From assembly GCA_002685535.1 (NCBI GenBank), contig NYXK01000071.1, positions 62,001 to 126,000 of the forward strand: DNA of 64,000 bases, written 5' to 3'. Shown here piece after piece: positions 13,502 to 60,500 of the stretch. How positions within the stretch are numbered: the stretch's first letter is position 1; each line of letters begins with the position of its first letter. The notes under the pieces were generated by a model. It searched no databases. It was not told where the DNA came from and saw only the letters and a list, made by a program, of their open reading frames with translations. This DNA comes from Deltaproteobacteria bacterium (GTDB taxonomy: Bacteria; SAR324; NAC60-12). Position numbers and translations under genes: made by a program.

Positions 13502-16500
13502 ATGTCTGACAATGCTGACCCGGTGATTGGGTGGGTGCTGGGCGAGCTGCGCAAGGCTGCAAATGAAGGTGAGTCGATGACTTTTGGTCGATACCTTAGA
13601 GCTTGGGTGGCTTTTGCTGCATGGAAGTGGAGATCTGGCGCGACAACGCAATTGGAGAATGTTTGATTTCGATGGAGGCCTGCCAGAGCTGGGTGTGCAG
13701 AGCGTGGTTCGATGTGCTGTGCTGTGCTGGTTCAGTGGTCGTTCTCCGTGCCCACTCTCCTCTCTTCGGCGGGGTTGCAGTCATCTCACGTGATCACTTT
13801 CAAACTGGCTTTGCTCGGGTGAGCTGCTATGTATTTCCTGGGAGTGCCAAAGCCATCTGCCAGAGCTCGGTCTCTGAGTTTTCCCTACTGTTATGTAATC
13901 GGTTCAGCGCTCAATGCCATCGGCGTGGTGTATGGTTTACCAAGGCCAAAGCTAACAATCACGACCAGGCATCTCTATTAATGAACTCTCTGACCTCCTC
14001 GACAAGTCTTCCAGTCCAGATCAAGATGCAAAAAATGCTACGTGGAAGGCTCTCACGGCCAGAACCGACGTCCACTTCATCGACGAGACCAAGACGCCCT
14101 TGCAAAATTTGACCATGACGGATGTGTTGCTTGTGGGCCAAGGAGATGTACGAATCCGAGCAGCGACACAGAATGTCAATAGAGCTGCAGCCGCGTCGAA
14201 TGCTCTGGTTACATCCATTGAGTCTGATACAGAACTTGAGGTGAGCTTTGACTCCAAACAGACAGAAGAGTACCCGATTGACACAACAAAGCAGAATGAT
14301 CAGCCCGAACCACCACCTCCCAAGAAAAGGGGTCGCCCTCCAAAAGCAAAGAAGGATGTGTCAGTAGCGACCCCTCTCACAGCCAGCCAGCCACCTGCTT
14401 TCAATTCCCTCGCTGCTTCCTCTCGGTCGACTCGGCGTCGATCGCAGCTTGGCATTCAATCCAGTCCTATGACTCCCCAGGACCTGCCCTCATCCACGAA
14501 TACGCCATCCACCTCCGTATCTCGTACTACTCGCCGTCGAAAGCAGGTTACTTCTAGCTCTTTGCCTCTGCATGAGTCGGCGTCTCTTGAGAAAGCTACG
14601 ACTGCCGAACCTCGCAAGATACGACGTCAATCAGAAGCTCTGGTCACTCAACAACCAACAAGCCCCGAGAACGATACCGCTGCTGTCGACTCTAGTGTAA
14701 CTCAGCATCAGGTAGACTATACAAACGCGCCAAGTATACCTGCGTCTCATGGAAGCCGTCAGCCGTCTCAAGATGCTGTTGACCACGAGTACCAGCCAGC
14801 CCAATCAGCCACGACTTTTGCGGACCCTGATACAATTGTCGTGGACTCAGGCGTCGGAGTACCCAAGGAGAGCACACCTGTATCTCAACGACAGGAAGCA
14901 ACCGAATCACTTGCTTTTGTAGCTGACGACAATTTCATGTCGAATCTTCCTCCGTCGCCCGAAGCCTCTACCGGCCCCCCAATGTCCTCTCTTCACAATG
15001 TCATTGGCTCCAATGAATACACTAGTGGAGGTTCCATCGAAGCTCCCGTCTCAATGTCCCCACCTCCATTTTTCCCTCCTCAAGTCGCTACATCTCCAAT
15101 GGAGCCTACTCCGGAACCCCTGGACGAAGACGATCCAGTTGAGCCTACAGAGCCAATACAGCGTCGCTCCAGTAGTCGATTCAGTGCTGCCGAGCTACTA
15201 CCAGAGGCAACCTTCACTTCACAAGCCGATATGGACTGGGAAGATGGCAAGGATGGAGTTTACGTAAATCCACCAGGCGTCAAGGTCAAGAAGCCGCAAC
15301 ATTTCAAAAAGAAGAAACACTCCACCTTGGTTGTATTCAGATCACCAAAGCTCAAGGATCCGAATCGATTAATGAATGGCAAGGATACTTGGCAAGAACG
15401 AATCATGCCAGTAGTGACACAAGCACGACTCACATCTGCGGATGATGCAGTTGAGCAAGGCTTAGTCCCCAAACTGAATAAGAAGCGCAAAGCCGACTTG
15501 GAGGTAGAACCAACACCAAGGAAGAAGGTGGTCAAGAAGCGTGCTCCTGCTGAAGGCGAAATTGACCCGTCTTTGGCTCAGGAATGGGGTGAGGGCTATC
15601 CGAATGACGACTCTGAAAGCGAATACTCCGGAATATCAATCCTTGAAGCCGATGTTCCGCCTGTGCCTGAGAACCCCAGCAGCTGGTCAACAGTCTGGAC
15701 ACGTGATGGCGCTGAGGAAGCCAGACTTAATACCAATCATCGGAATTTCAACCACAATGATCGTGCAAGCTCATTCACACCATCTGACTCACAGACCCCT
15801 TATGGATCTCCCTCTCCTGTTGACTTCGACGATTCTACGACATCTCGAATGGCAGCAAGCAACCTAAACTCACAAAGTGCTGGGCCCCAGCCGCCTCCGA
15901 TGGATCCTCTCCTCTCTATTACTTCTAGCGCTCCCGCACCTTCACCTATACAAGACTCGCATCCTCCTTTCACACCAAGCAAAAAAGGTGTCCTCACTCT
16001 GCCAGCCTTCACACCACCTCCAGCACGGACCTATAGGAGCCCTTATGCACCTGTCGAGTCTGCGGGCCCTGTCGGATTTAGCGCAAATGTCGAGTCGAGA
16101 ACTAGCGATGGCTATGCCCAACCCCAGATCTCCCCGTTTGCTTCGTTTGGCAAATCTACAACACCCATCACTGTGGTCCAGTCCTCTCTTGCCACCGAGC
16201 AACGAGAATCCTCAGCCGCATCTGTGGAGAAATTTCCTGCTCTGAAGGTTCTTCAGTCCAGTAATAAGGTGCCATCCTACAGATCACCATACGCTCCACC
16301 AACGCAGAACTCAGAGATATTATCTGAGAGTCCCGCTGCTGGTACCTTACCCAATTCCCACCAACACGTTCTGAATGGCTCTGCACTCACCCAAGCCACT
16401 GCGGAGACTCCAGCGAGCACGCAGACCGCAGGTTCCCAGTCAAGCGCTACAGTCAAGGACATAGTTCGACCGACTGAACCATTTACAGTCGCGACTGAGG

Positions 16501-19500
16501 CGAGACCAGGCATCGCTAGCGCAGGCGATTCTTCTACACCTGGTGATGTTGCAGACTTTCTTAGCTTCATGGAACGAGATCTTTCAACGCCTAGCGGAAG
16601 TAAAGAGGGTAAAGGAGTTCGAGGGAGGTCAAGCACTCATGGAAATTCACGTGGTAGAGGTCAAGGAGGCACACGCGCCGGTCGTGGTAGAGCTCGCGGT
16701 AAAGACAAAACACTTATTCCACCTGCAGCAGATCAAACTGCCGTCTCATCAAGCGGTATAGTTGGTAGCACAGCTTACATTCCCTTGGGTACTGGTGGCA
16801 CACCAGAGTTTACTTCTGTCCCCGCTCTAGCTGGAGAACAATTGCTAGTTCCGGATACGCCAACACAGGGAGCTTCTCAGACAACTTCTGATAATGTATC
16901 TAGCGTTCTCGAGAGCCTCCGTACAGCTGCCTTGAACGGACCTTACCCAATGGTACCGCTTGATTTCGTTCCCCAGACTGCCTTCCATCAGGCCCCGCCT
17001 CAAAGTCAGAGTCTTGATAATGCCCCAATGTCAGACTACGGAACGCCCAGTTTTGTTCAGCCTGGTATTATTCCAACCACGGAAGTTGAGCACGCGGATA
17101 GTTGGATGGCCAATAGGATTGAGCAAAACATACCCGAGACACCGGCGCAATCTGCAACCAGGGACGCTGACGGAGAGGTCAACATGATGGAAACACCGCA
17201 AACGACCCCATCCCAGTCAAAAGCTCCAGGAATTCGAAGCGCAAAATCTAAAGCTAATACTATACCAAACTCCAAACGTACCCCTGCATTGAAAACAACA
17301 AAAGTCCGATCCGATCCAGACGAAAGGTTGAGGATCAAGGTCGCCGAAGCTCAGGATGTTGAGGTTGCTGACGGAGCGACCAAATTTCCGTGCATCTACA
17401 AAGATGCTGTCGGCAACCTGGTTCTGTCAAGCGATCAGAAGTTCTTGGATTTCGTTGCCCTCACTCAAACCCCACCTGAGTTGCCTATAGCTAGCATGAA
17501 GGTGTTCCATATCAATGGCAACCCAATCATGTCTGCAAAAGGTTCGTTTCCAATGGAATTGCATATCAAGACAAAGGATGAGAAGAATAGAAAGAGAGCT
17601 TATCGCTTCACCTATGCCTCAGCAGAGACTGATGCTGCACAAGAGATGCGCACGAAGATCGTCACGGCAATGATCGCCTCGGAATTCACTGCTGGTGATT
17701 TTGCCAGCGTCGCCGAGGCTCAGGCAGCAAAGGTCCGACCCTTCCTATGTGAGCTCTGCGGTGATAGATTCAAGAATCCAAACGGCTTGGAGTACCATCT
17801 GAACAAGGCCAAGACCAAGTGCAATCCAAATTGGGATCCAGAGGCCGACACTGGGAAGAGAGTGTATCGGAGAAAATCCAAAGGGGATAAAGTTGTCTCT
17901 TCAGAGGGTGCCCCGCGTACACCTCGGAAGAAGAAACCCAAGGCACGTAATGTACAGGATGAAGACGATTTGGGATCAACCACTAGCGAAGAGGAACCAG
18001 TCCTTATTCCCCGATCGGCGAGAAGGGTCACATCAGAGAGAGTCCTCGACTCCGATGGTGAAGAAGCACCTCGCTCTACACGACCTGCAAGAAAGTCGAA
18101 ACAAGTCGAAGATGACGATCTAGATGCGGACGGCGACTCCGATGATTCCATTTTCAACTGGGCTCGCAACAATGCGACATCTGGGTATGCCAAGTCACGT
18201 CGATCTGCCAGCGTCTCAGAAACACCTCGTCCACCGCGATCAGCCAACAAGTCAACCTCAAAGCGAAAGCAAACTGGAAATTTAGATGCCGACGAAGATA
18301 GCGATGCATCTCTGGTGGAATGGTTCGAGAAGCATGGAAAAATTGATTCCAATGCTCCAGCTTCAACAAAGACTCCAAGAATATACAAAGCTTTGAATCG
18401 CGAAGCCGAGGTCGCTGATCAAATCGTCAAAGAGTTTGCCGATCGCATTCGTGATGGGGAAGAAGAGATCTTTGGCCTCGCCATCACCCCTACTTCTCAA
18501 CTGACTACTGCTTACGAGATTGCAACTAGCATGACCTGCAAGGAACTGAACAGCAAGTGGTACGAAGAGGTTGTGACACAATTGGTGCAGAGAAACGAGG
18601 GTATGTTCCCAGCTGAAAATAGTGTATGGTTTGCCAGTGTGGCTATCTGGTTGAAGCAACATCCTCTTACCACGGTCCTTCCGGAATCCAAGTTCTGTAA
18701 TATGGCTGTAGACGACCTTGTTGCATCGAAAACCTTTACTAGAGTGGTGTTCGAGTTCAAAGACCGGAATCGCAATCCCAGATCTATCACTCGCAGCATT
18801 CTTACAGCAAATGGGCTAGATATGAGCACTCAGCGTGCTGATCTAATCAAGGAGCTGGTCCAAGAAAGCCATCCAAAGGCATACGTTCCCTCTCAACTAG
18901 CGCCGCCACCGTCTGCGCTTGACAAGTTGCAAGCCGTTGTTGCCCGGCTGCTTCCCAGCCTGACTGTCTTGGCGGATTCCCAGGAAGAAGATCGAGATGA
19001 GTCTCCGATTCCTGATTTCGGCGATGATTCGGACTCAGATGACTTCATGGAAGATGCCCAAGCAGATGTTGAAAGCCAAGAAAGCGAGGACGATATGGAT
19101 CTGGATGAGGAAGAAGATCCAGTCTCTGCACTTTCTGAAACCAAGAAGTCAAAGAAGCGGGACCGTACATCGACTGGCATTGGTCCAAAGCGACGACGAG
19201 ACGCAGGACACAACGCCAAGATTTCAGAAGGTGTGCGAAGACGATTCGCCGAGATCAGAGCTGGTGGTGAGAACCCGTATCCATGGCACATCAAGACGAA
19301 GACAAAGTATGTTTCAGCTGCCGAGCGACTAAAGATCAACGAGGACAAGAAACGTCGAGACCAGGAAACTGCTGCTGCCAAGCGAGCATGTTGGGGAACC
19401 GCTCTGGCATACATGCCCAATACCGAAACTGGTGCTTGGGATCAGATTCCTATTCCGCATGGAAACTGGATGATGGACGACAAGACGAGCAAATCGAGAT

Positions 19501-22190
19501 ACGCAAGACGTCAGCGTCTACCTGAGCCGATCACCTTTCTGCAAGCCCTCGACGGATCGTGGTCAGTCCGGCCCTTTGGTCATGGAGTCAATCCTATCTA
19601 TTCACGACCATCACGCCGAGCAGAAGGAAACCCAACTCATCACCTCTACCTCAATCGTATCGAAAACAGCCATCGTCCTATAGTCTACCCTCCAGTAAAG
19701 AACCGAGTCAACCTTCCGGCAGTGCCATCTAGACGTCTCCTGGAGGCGGTGGAATCTGGCAGACCAATCGACGAGAAAACCGGTCTGCCAGTTGTGTCCC
19801 GATATGCTGCTACAAGAAAGAGACGCGCCTCTTCTGCCATGTCGCCCGAAACTGACGAGCAGCCTGCACCGAAGAGAAAGAGACGTGCTGCATCTGTCCG
19901 ATTTGCGGGCCTTGACTCCGACGAAGACTCACCAAGCGGGATTATCTCCAGGGCGACAGGTAAGCCACTTCGTCGCTATTCGAGAAATTTCCCCAAGCAA
20001 GTCTTTGTGCCGGTTGTTGGCGATCCAAGATTGTCTGGATCAAGGAGCTTTCCAGCTAGAAAATCCTCCAGAAAGCCCAAATTTACCGAGGTCGAAATCT
20101 TGAATTTCTACGAGCCAAAGAAATTGGCTGCTGGTGGGCCGAGAAACCCTGGCTTGGACACTATACCAGCACAGTATGGATTGGATGCACCAAATGGACC
20201 ATCGGACTGGAATTACTCGCCTGTTTACAGTGGCATCATTTTCATCGCCGCTGGATTTGTCAGTGAGGATCAAGAGCCTGGTAACAGTTCTTGGACGGTC
20301 AAACAATTGGACACATATCGACCAGCAGACTACAGTCTCAGATGGGACGACGCCACTGCATTCACCGCCGAGGATCTTCCGTACTCCGATTTGCAGGAAG
20401 AGAGTTCGTGGAATCCCGGACTCGGCATTTCTGGATATAATGGTGCAGACTTCAATGCGGAAAATGCCGTTGATTTGATGTCAGATGACGAAGTCGAGGA
20501 ATACGAGGAGCCGAAACGCAAGCGTCAACGAAAGGATCCCAAAGAAGCCAAACAAGGAAAGCAAGCAAAGGACGATAGAGGCGAGAAGTACAGCTATGTC
20601 CGACAACACACTGCTCTAGCCATGGATTTCGTCGACCTCTTCGAGGATCCTGTCGTAGCTGGAAAGTACTTTGGCGTTGAGATCGGCACACCTAACGAGT
20701 CAACTTTGAAGCGATCAAGAAACCTCGGCAGCAACATCATGTTACCAGACATGGAGAGTCGATTTGCGGTATCTGTCATGGTCATCCGTATCCTCACAGG
20801 TGGCCTTGATCTTCAAGTCGACTGGATCCTCGTCTCGCAAATGTTCCCAGAATACTCTTTGAACTTCCTCAAGAAAGTCTGGAACGGCATCCTCCTGCGG
20901 AAGAAGCCGGCCATTCTGAGACTTGAGGACCAATTCCGTGAGAAGTTCCTCGTTGCGTATCAGGAGAATGAAATACCACGCATCAATTACGAGCGCTTGA
21001 CCGAGTATCCGTGGGCCGAGCTCGTCGAATGGGTGATAAGGACCACCGATTGCTCGATGAACAACAAGACCATCTTCCTTCCATCGACCAGAGAGGAGGT
21101 CGTCGAAGATTACGATCTCCGCGAAGCCAAAGAGGATGGCTGCCCATGGCGAGAAAACTACTTCAGTATCACCACCGCAGTCTACAAACGCATCATGGCA
21201 TCAGCTGCAGTCTCACACGCCATCCCCTTCCAACCACGTAAACGCCACCGTAGCCTCGACAACGAAATTGACGACTTCGCCGTCTGTAGATCCTGGGTCC
21301 GCGTCGCTGCCATCACGCCCAACGAAGACTGGAACCGCGACTTCGCCAAAAGCAAACTCGCGTCGTTCAACAGATCTCTCCTCTCCGACGTCCTCGACAG
21401 TCTCACCTCGCAGAAAATCGTCAAGAAGCGCGCCGCCAACAAAGCCAAGAACGGCCGCGTCTACGAGATCCACGATACGTGGTCTACCTCGCTCCGTCGG
21501 CACATGAAAGAGAGCCAATTCATCGAAGCAGTCACCTTCAAGCGCTGGATGGACGCACAATTCGCTTCAGGCGTACAATCCGTCAAAGCCGATTATTTCG
21601 CCAACGAGGGCACAATCATGTGTCTCACGTCCCTCCAAGCACACGGTCGTATTCGTTTCTTAGGAGCTGATATCCCGATGAACAGATTCGGACTCGGGGA
21701 TGGCGGGTATGAAACCAAGAAGATCCCGAAGGAGAGATTGCGGTTTACTATCGATATCTATCCTACCTCTGAATACATCTTCGATGATTCGAACCCCGTA
21801 CTGTCGAATATCCTGTTTCGGGACCCGCCGCGTGGTGGCGAGCAAGGCGAGATTCCGATCTGGTATGGATTGACGGGGAAGCCGATTTGGCGGGTCTGGT
21901 ATAAGATTCTTGCTGCTGTGGGGCAGGTTGTTGCGTTGAGAGCCGGGGTTAACATCACTGGCTTGAAGGAGAGCTTTAGGGTTACGTTGGAGGATTGGGA
22001 GTGGAGGTTGTTGTTGGAGTGGGGTGTTGAGGTGGGGATGTTTGTGAGGCTGGGGGAGGAGGGTATGGGTGGGGGAGGTGAGGGATGGAGTGTGGGGGAG
22101 TGGTGGTGGGCCGTCGTTGGGAGTGGGTGGTTGGATGGGGAGGGGATGGGGATGGCTGTTGACCAGGGTGGGGTTGGAGCGGTGCTTTGA
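13502..22190 (+). CDS. Very large (~2,762 aa) nuclear protein, possibly a TFIIIC Tfc3-like (B-block-binding) subunit; join(13502..13568,13969..22190)
   Basis: Winged-helix-like N-terminus MSDNADPVIGWVLGELRKAANEGISINELSDLLDK...; AT-hook-like PKKRGRPPKAKK; C2H2-like FLCELCGDRFKNPNGLEYHLNKAKTKC; C-terminal winged-helix-like LLSDVLDSLTSQKIVKKRA..GRVYEIHDTWSTSLRR. CDS and splice are strong; functional name is tentative. Confidence 0.6.
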
Positions 22191-57545: not shown

Positions 57546-58457
57546 CTAACCTCGATTATGTTTCTGTTCTCCTCGTCGTCGTTGTCCTCCTCCTCGCTTC
57601 TCCTTGGCCTGCCTTTTGCTCTTCTCGATCTCGTCTGCCTGTGCGTTGGCTTTCTCTCTGGAAGCCTCCATTTGCAACTGCTCGTCTTTCTTCAAGAGCA
57701 AGTTAGCGTAGTTCCCTCGCCAAGGTGCAATAATGTCTGACTTACTCTCGCTTTCTCTGCAACAGTCAGCAGAGCTGGCGGTAATGCTCTCCGTTCTTCG
57801 AATGCATCTGGGTATTTCTTTGCAAATCTTGCGCCAAAAGCCATCACATCAGTCGGACCAGATTCAGGGCTGATGTAGAACGAGGTGTCCCTCCTTTTAC
57901 CATCCTTTCCAACCCAACTTACCGAAGCTTTTCCGTCTGCTGTGAATTCGCCTGACCAACTCAGCATCTCGATTGGTTGGGTCGGCTCTATAGTCAAGTT
58001 GCACCGTTGGGCTACGTTCGGGGACATGAAGTTTTCCCGGCATCCAGAGTCCACCATGACAGTCACTACTTCAAATCGACCCGTCCTTACATTGTGTACC
58101 TTGGCCACTTTGTACTCTATGTCCCCAGTGTCATCATCGCAATCCTCCTCTGCTTGCTCGTAGTTTTGATCATCATTCTGATCGTGTATCGAGCGTCAGC
58201 TTGCCCTTGTTGGAGATCTCATCACTAGGAAGTCTTACAGCAGCTGCCTGGTAGTTGGATGAACTAGTGCTTCGCCTTTCTTGCTCGTCCAAGTAGTTGT
58301 TGTAGGCTTCTTGTTCTGGCGATTCAGCAACACCAGCGATTGAGTAACCCATACGAAGCCAACGCTTTCTATCCAACCTTTTGCTATCGAATTCTCGACG
58401 TTGGTCTGAAGTCAAATTCGGCATGGCCCCGTCATAAGCGCCATAATTACTCGACAT
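57546..58457 (-). CDS. Retropepsin-like (aspartic protease fold) protein; complement(join(57546..57689,57746..58177,58239..58457)), 264 aa
   Basis: VTVMVDSGCRENFMSPNVAQRCNL (D-S-G active-site-like) and TDVMAFGARFAKKYPDAF (analogous to the DVxLGxxF motif); two phase-0 GT-AG introns (61 and 56 bp) keep frame; basic C-terminal tail KSKRQAKEKRGGGQRRRGEQKHNRG. Confidence 0.7.
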
Positions 58458-58896
58458 GTTGATTCGCGAAGAAAATAGCGGCCGACACCTTTCGAGCGTC
58501 GGTAAGTGCGAGGGGAATTGTCGAGCGACAAGTGTAGAATCGTTCCACGAGGCTAAAATGATACGTCAACGATCAAAATTTGGTACTCTCTCGGGATCAG
58601 AATTGGCATACCATGGCGGGGCGGAACCCCATACTTGTAGACCACTACCTGATTATGAGACATGAATGGAAGATATTCTCTTATTGGTTTCTATTAATAG
58701 CTCTACTTGCCAGCCTGCTGATGCCTTACCTGCTTTCCTTTGGGCACCGCTCGGTTTTATAAGAGGGTATGCCGTTAAATATACTGGTGCCACGTCGGCT
58801 TTCGTCTGTGATCAGGCTGCGTTAAGTCTGCCACACACTATAAAATTCTGTCGAGATGTTGCATTTAGGAGCGTTTAGCCTCACATAGACTCTTAG

Positions 58897-59335
58897 TTCG
58901 CCAGCCTTGCACAGTCTTTCCTGCAGGCTGAACGTATGTTCATCTCACTTTGCTAAACCAAAGTCAAAGATTTGTGCCACTAAGAAGCGGTGTAAATGCG
59001 CTGTACGGAATCGTCTGGAAGACTATAGCCTTCCGCCATGTTTCGCAACATAAAAGTATGGCTAGAAAAGTCCTTTGTCTTTCATACAGCCTTGGATTCG
59101 CCAGCCTTGTGCAGACTTTCCTGCAGGCGTGTCGGAGTCGCATCGCCTCAATTTACCAAATTGACCACAAAAACATGCGCTCATATGAAAAGGCCAAAAG
59201 GCCAAAAGGCTCTACTAAGATACTTGGAAATTGACGCCAGAGCCCTCCTTAGTTGGGAATACATGTGAAAGCGGTGCATCTTGTTCTGCACAGCCGGGCG
59301 GCATGCCAGCCTTATGCAACCTTTCATGCGGGCGT
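58897..59335 (+). repeat. Three degenerate copies of a ~30-bp motif at ~200-bp spacing
   Basis: ccagccttgcacagtctttcctgcaggctg (58901), ccagccttgtgcagactttcctgcaggcgt (59101), ccagccttatgcaacctttcatgcgggcgt (59306). Confidence 0.85.
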
Positions 59336-59470
59336 AACGACGTGTCGGGTATCACGCAGCCTCGCCTGGCTTTAATCACACCGACTAGGAAACATCCAGC
59401 CTCATAATGGAAACCTGAAGCTCCTACCCCAGGAGTCCACGAACGCCATAGCCTGGCCATCAACGCGACC

Positions 59471-60500
59471 ATGGAAGGATATGCAAAAGTGGCGCATTTG
59501 ATGGCAAGGCAGAAAGAAACCGCCATACTGCGACGATTCCGGAAGCTCAACCTTCAAAGGCTTTTGTATTTACAGGCTGAAATTACACACCTTGAGTATG
59601 AAGTCAAGCAGTTGGCAGAAAGAGACTCGGCTCACGAGGACCGGATCTATCATGCGAAAGATTGGTGGTCCTTGAGTCAGGCTGGCGAAAGGGAGGACAC
59701 AGAGCAATGGCGAGTGTTTTCTGAGCTCAGCGGAAAGTTGGATCTTTACAGTAAGCTCTCTTCGTAAATAGCACTCCAATTGGATCCATGAACATAGTTT
59801 GATTTTACCAGATGACTTGCTATTGAAACAGGTTTCTCTTGCCAAGCTAGAGCAACCCCGGAAGTATGATCTCGAATTCTTACGAGACTGGTTCCAGAGA
59901 CCAAGCATGGGGTCATTTCCTCTCCTCGGCGTCGACCGTGACTCCTGGGATACGAAGAATGAGAACGACTTGATAGCCATCAAGCCTCGCTCCCCACAAG
60001 ATTTATTCTCGGAGTGGTTCACCGAGAAGCTTGTTCCTCGCTATCATGGTTGTCTTGGAAGGACACTCAAAGTGAGTCCTGCACGAGCGTAGGCTTATCA
60101 AACTCCTTCTTGTTACTGATGAGGGGTTTCAGGAACCGATAGCAGAAGAGGTTGGTTCCGGCATATACAACTACGAAGAATCAGCTCTTGATTCCTTGCT
60201 TGGTATTTTGGTGACGGTAGTAGCGTCGCTTCTTCCGATTTGTTCTGTGGTTGCTCTTTATCTCATCACATCTAATGGACTGCGACTCGGCATGATTGCA
60301 ATTTTCTCTGCATGTTTTGCTCTTGCTTTGGCGCTCATGACCAATGCAAGGAGGATCGAGGTGTTTGCAGCTACCGCCGCGTAAGTGGTCACAGCAATCC
60401 ATCTCGAGGAGCACATGCTAACGGGGGTCACTGAAATAGATTTGCTGCTGTGAATGCTGTATTCTTGACAAATGGTCAAGAATGTTCATGTTCTGTATGA
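59471..60500 (+). CDS. DUF6594-family membrane protein; join(59471..59750,59812..60071,60133..60380,60440..60500)
   Basis: MEGYAKVAHLMARQKETAILRRFRKLNLQRLLYLQAEITHLE...LLKQVSLAKLEQPRKYDLEFLRDWF...DLIAIKPR...LGILVTVVASLLPICSVVALYLITSNGLRLGMIAIFSACFALALALMTNARRIEVFAATAAFAAVNAVFL*; all four exons join in frame. Confidence 0.88.

Follow-up and report, generated by a model that had tools for sequence, protein, structure and literature searches.

A spliced, stand-alone retropepsin-like gene on a fungal contig binned with a bacterial assembly

In retropepsins, two subunits join into one active site, and each subunit contributes a catalytic motif. Two mammalian proteins, ASPRV1 (SASPase) and PEG10, are retroelement-derived proteases that are now encoded by host genes (PMC7212762, PMC11402058). 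DDI1 and DDI2 have a retropepsin domain within a cellular protein. A survey of fungi described MEROPS A28 retropepsins across fungal groups, found no correlation with the number of LTR elements, and suggested possible domestication (PMC8778642). The survey left open whether the fungal matches are unmasked transposons (PMC8778642). A "retropepsin-like domain-containing protein" of Bipolaris sorokiniana is also listed in an expression table (PMC10993733). A literature search found no functional study of stand-alone retropepsin genes in fungi.

We analyzed a fungal gene that encodes a 264-aa protein with a retropepsin-like domain. Fungal proteomes are known to include retropepsin-type proteins, and this gene adds one more. 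It shares a retropepsin-type domain with the fungal A28 and "retropepsin-like domain-containing" proteins, which were compared by description only (PMC10993733, PMC8778642). Like PEG10, the 264-aa protein has an Asp-Ser-Gly motif (PMC7212762, PMC11402058). However, ASPRV1 and PEG10 retain Gag-like domains, whereas none was seen in the 264-aa protein, and the two mammalian genes are domestications separate from it. DDI1 and DDI2 provide the nearest solved structures when profiles are compared (below). Unlike DDI1 and DDI2, the spliced 264-aa protein had no Pfam match to a ubiquitin-like or UBA domain, and we rejected the idea that it is a DDI1 orthologue on this basis.

Our results are best explained if this is a filamentous-ascomycete nuclear gene for a stand-alone retropepsin-like protease, owned by the host and with a domain that most likely derives from a gypsy element. 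We consider this explanation probable. If the gene is under selection, then mammalian proteases such as ASPRV1 and PEG10 would have a counterpart in fungi, with a catalytic residue that is easily tested. It would also follow that some of the retropepsin matches in fungal proteomes are something other than unmasked transposons.

The contig and the gene model

The window, the whole 64,000-nucleotide stretch of DNA that was analyzed, corresponds to bases 62001-126000 of contig C75 (314,690 bp). This contig is part of an assembly of 7.28 Mb (244 contigs). Genus mates of the assembly are 1.3-3.3 Mb. Because the assembly is more than twice that size, several Mb of it are probably fungal contamination. 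Genes of fungal type in the window include those for a Zn(2)-Cys(6) cluster protein, a fungal-specific transcription factor, a tannase/feruloyl esterase, sugar transporters, and DUF6594 and DUF6581 proteins. Genes in the window also contain short GT-AG introns. Based on this gene set and these introns, C75 is a filamentous-ascomycete contig, a contaminant that was binned with a prokaryote. We infer from the same gene content and introns that the fungus belongs within the Pezizomycotina. Its genome is likely present only in part, so the copy numbers given below are lower bounds. The DUF6581 domain is near the end of a 2744-aa open frame at 13956-22187.

The gene is on the minus strand, at 58457-57546. 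An earlier note on this DNA had described an intact 264-aa gene with two phase-0 introns, and we reproduced that model exactly. The start codon at 58457 (context CAACATGTC) begins exon 1 (58457-58239), which is open from the ATG and encodes 73 aa of a charged N-terminal region. Intron 1 (58238-58178; 61 nt, phase 0) has GTAAGA at the donor site, GCTGACG at the branch point, and CAG at the acceptor. Exon 2 (58177-57746; 144 aa) contains the retropepsin-like domain. It is followed by intron 2 (57745-57690; 56 nt, phase 0), with GTAAGT, GCTAACT, and AAG at the corresponding sites. The donor, branch point, and acceptor signals match the consensus. Exon 3 (57689-57549; 47 aa) encodes a charged, helical-looking stretch and a basic tail and ends at the stop codon (57548-57546).

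Among the three sense frames, the annotated one had the highest codon score in every exon. Synonymous-codon preference of the gene was weak (z 2.4). For comparison, the values for two long ORFs, both of which were also in the training set, were z 6.0 and 14.9, and that for the neighboring gene at 56637-55818 was z 1.5.

The N-terminal region had been called novel. This is correct only in the sense that the region encoded by exon 1 had no significant match to a Pfam family. The C-terminal tail is basic, as had been described (pI 10.1, net +4.9 over 47 aa), and might conceivably bind RNA.

Genomic context and relatives in the assembly

We found no retroelement surrounding the gene. There was no match to RT (RVT_1) or integrase (rve) anywhere on the 315-kb contig. 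RT matches in the assembly were on contigs C165, C223, C84, C236, and C48, and integrase matches were on C165, C218, and C84. Within the 14 kb examined, no LTR-like, long direct, or inverted repeats flanked the gene. It was single-copy in the assembly by both DNA and protein searches, a count that is a lower bound.

The gene is free of repeat-induced (RIP) mutation and is similar in composition to the rest of the window. Its TpA/ApT and CpA-type indices were 0.69 and 1.26, compared to 0.63 and 1.27 for the window. Degenerate RT loci in the assembly (L008-L010) had 25-31% GC and shifted indices, as RIP would leave. The lack of RT and integrase on the contig, the single copy, and the lack of RIP indicate that the gene does not belong to an element. 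The earlier description of a stand-alone gene outside any gag-pol element is thus borne out, and the many near-identical copies with linked gag or RT that might have spoken against it were not seen. We also rejected a gypsy insertion at the position of the gene, as RT, integrase, and long flanking repeats were all missing there.

Searches for orthologues were done in non-fungal collections. There were no usable relatives among viral contigs, prokaryote genome contigs, phages, and plasmids, or in 51 other genomes from the phylum of the host bin. The sole plasmid match had E = 6. The gene is consistent with, and may represent, domestication in the strict sense.

A Ty3/gypsy retrotransposon is present on contig C165 (L013) of the same assembly. 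Its gag has a CCHC knuckle, and the element also includes a D-S-G protease, RT, and a match to integrase. The 264-aa protein matched the L013 protease by BLAST (36% over 36 aa around the DSG; pairwise E 6e-8), and 2000 shuffles yielded no score as high (z 12.4). The likeness was limited to the catalytic segment, in which the D-S-G motif and its flanks are common to the two proteins. In L013 the protease sits between the CCHC gag and RT-integrase. In contrast, the 264-aa gene stands alone, is spliced, and has other flanks. The similarity to L013 supports a gypsy-type origin. We suggest that a Ty3/gypsy (Metaviridae) retrotransposon was most likely the source of the protease domain, which came into a host gene context and would there have been combined with introns and with new extensions at both ends.

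We found a second intact stand-alone retropepsin-like gene, on contig C190 (L015:759-2600), with a three-exon model encoding 573 aa and the motifs D-T-G and LLLG. The order of its parts is like that in the 264-aa gene: a single domain, here with D-T-G, is followed by an intron and then by a charged, Q/K/E/A-rich stretch. However, L015 has a long, different N-terminal region and a long C-terminal region, and the intron after the domain is in phase 1 rather than phase 0. Identity between the two cores was 20%, and 0.8% of shuffles reached the score, indicating that the similarity is weak. Judging from the sequences, common descent of the two genes as a host family is possible. The N-terminal region of L015 had no Pfam match; by eye, it may resemble the domains at the N-terminus of fungal STAND proteins.

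Contig C190 also holds a frameshifted relic of this second gene, 36 kb away from it (L023:1468-1771, minus strand; E 3e-8). The DTG is still visible. The intact L015 gene and its relic indicate that stand-alone retropepsin-like genes come and go. Since the group includes dying copies, the 264-aa gene might itself be open by chance and without function, either as a fragment captured or left over from a gypsy element or as a gene of recent birth that contains such a fragment. The weak codon preference and the lack of orthologues in the non-fungal collections would also fit with this. However, the 264-aa reading frame stays open through all three exons, its splice and branch-point signals are clean, the gene has no RIP signature, and no trace of RT, integrase, or repeat sequence was seen next to it. 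Based on these properties, we consider a functionless gypsy remnant to be fairly unlikely, and we favor a host-owned protease gene.

Filamentous ascomycetes might keep an unnamed family of stand-alone retropepsins that turns over, swaps N-terminal regions (compare the 264-aa gene and L015), and is used for limited proteolysis in the biology of the fungal cell itself. We regard this proposal as speculative and quite unlikely. The uses of such a family may include, for example, defense against retroelements or self/non-self responses.

The retropepsin-like domain

We found the two motifs that the earlier note had reported. Exon 2 encodes VMVDSG at residues 113-118, a hydrophobic lead-in followed by D-S-G (D116). 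This is the sole D-[ST]-G with preceding hydrophobic residues in the 264-aa protein, and the core of the domain is ~108 aa, in the range of a single retropepsin lobe with one catalytic Asp (~100-130 residues). The hydrophobic-G motif is MAFG at residues 185-188 (G188), 72 residues after the Asp, where retropepsins have it roughly 60-80 residues downstream of the DSG. This motif is slightly unusual in that one hydrophobic position is occupied by a small residue, A.

The top Pfam matches were all to retroelement-type aspartyl protease families of the retropepsin type. These included PF13650 (E 6e-4; 20.8 bits, curated cut-off 24.3), PF13975 (E 1e-3; 19.9 bits, curated cut-off 28.2), and PF09668, each of them below its curated cut-off. 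A PDB search with the single sequence of the domain gave nothing. We then used a profile made from the domains of the 264-aa gene and L015, which holds no retroelement sequence. With this profile, six of the seven top PDB matches were to DDI1/DDI2-type retropepsins, with weak E-values (0.16-0.9), and the alignment with human DDI2 covered the DSG as well as the hydrophobic-G motif. Profiles that included the gypsy protease L013 also matched DDI1-type chains, but L013 is a known retropepsin and these matches therefore weigh less as evidence. In terms of ancestry, DDI1-type matches would fit just as well if the domain had an origin other than gypsy. AlphaFold2 without an alignment gave pLDDT values of 44 for exon 2 and 55 for the trimmed core, and fold searches with the low-confidence model of the trimmed core gave no match. 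Taken together, the sequence comparisons suggest that the domain is very likely a retropepsin.

The MAFG variant might indicate that the protein has a retropepsin fold but no catalysis and now functions as a dimerization or binding module. The residues before the G in this second motif are not the usual aliphatic ones, and the flap region is without an obvious Gly-rich tip. In contrast, the catalytic D-S-G is preserved, as is the hydrophobic VMV that leads into it, and we think that an inactive module is distinctly improbable. It is extremely improbable that the DSG arose by chance in an unrelated, beta-rich protein, as every one of the independent sequence comparisons points to retropepsins, even though the Pfam scores are sub-threshold and there is no confident fold for the protein.

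If the 264-aa protein is an active protease, as we favor, then it would be expected to act as a homodimer in which the two subunits share one active site and contribute an Asp-Ser-Gly loop each. The charged N-terminal region and the basic tail may set its location and its substrate, which could be a fungal protein or the protease itself. Proteolytic activity, a substrate, and maintenance by selection are all predicted by this model.

Neighboring loci

The gene at 56637-55818, on the same strand as the 264-aa gene, is a plausible two-exon gene encoding 249 aa. Its product ends in a strongly acidic tail, with a net charge of -21 over the last 60 aa, and has no Pfam match. The start codons of the two genes are ~1.8 kb apart, and each gene has its own start. 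It had been suggested that the two proteins form a functional pair. We rejected this proposal: the only link is the opposite charge of the tails, nothing else ties the two genes together, and opposite charge of low-complexity tails does not imply an interaction.

On the other side of the 264-aa gene is a divergent, multi-exon DUF6594 gene (59408-60384, plus strand). Between these two genes, at 58897-59333, a 32-nt sequence is present in three copies (core GCCAGCCTTGTGCAGACTTTCCTGCAGGC) with spacings of 200 and 205 nt. The DNA separating the copies is hardly similar, and there is a weaker fourth copy at 58708.
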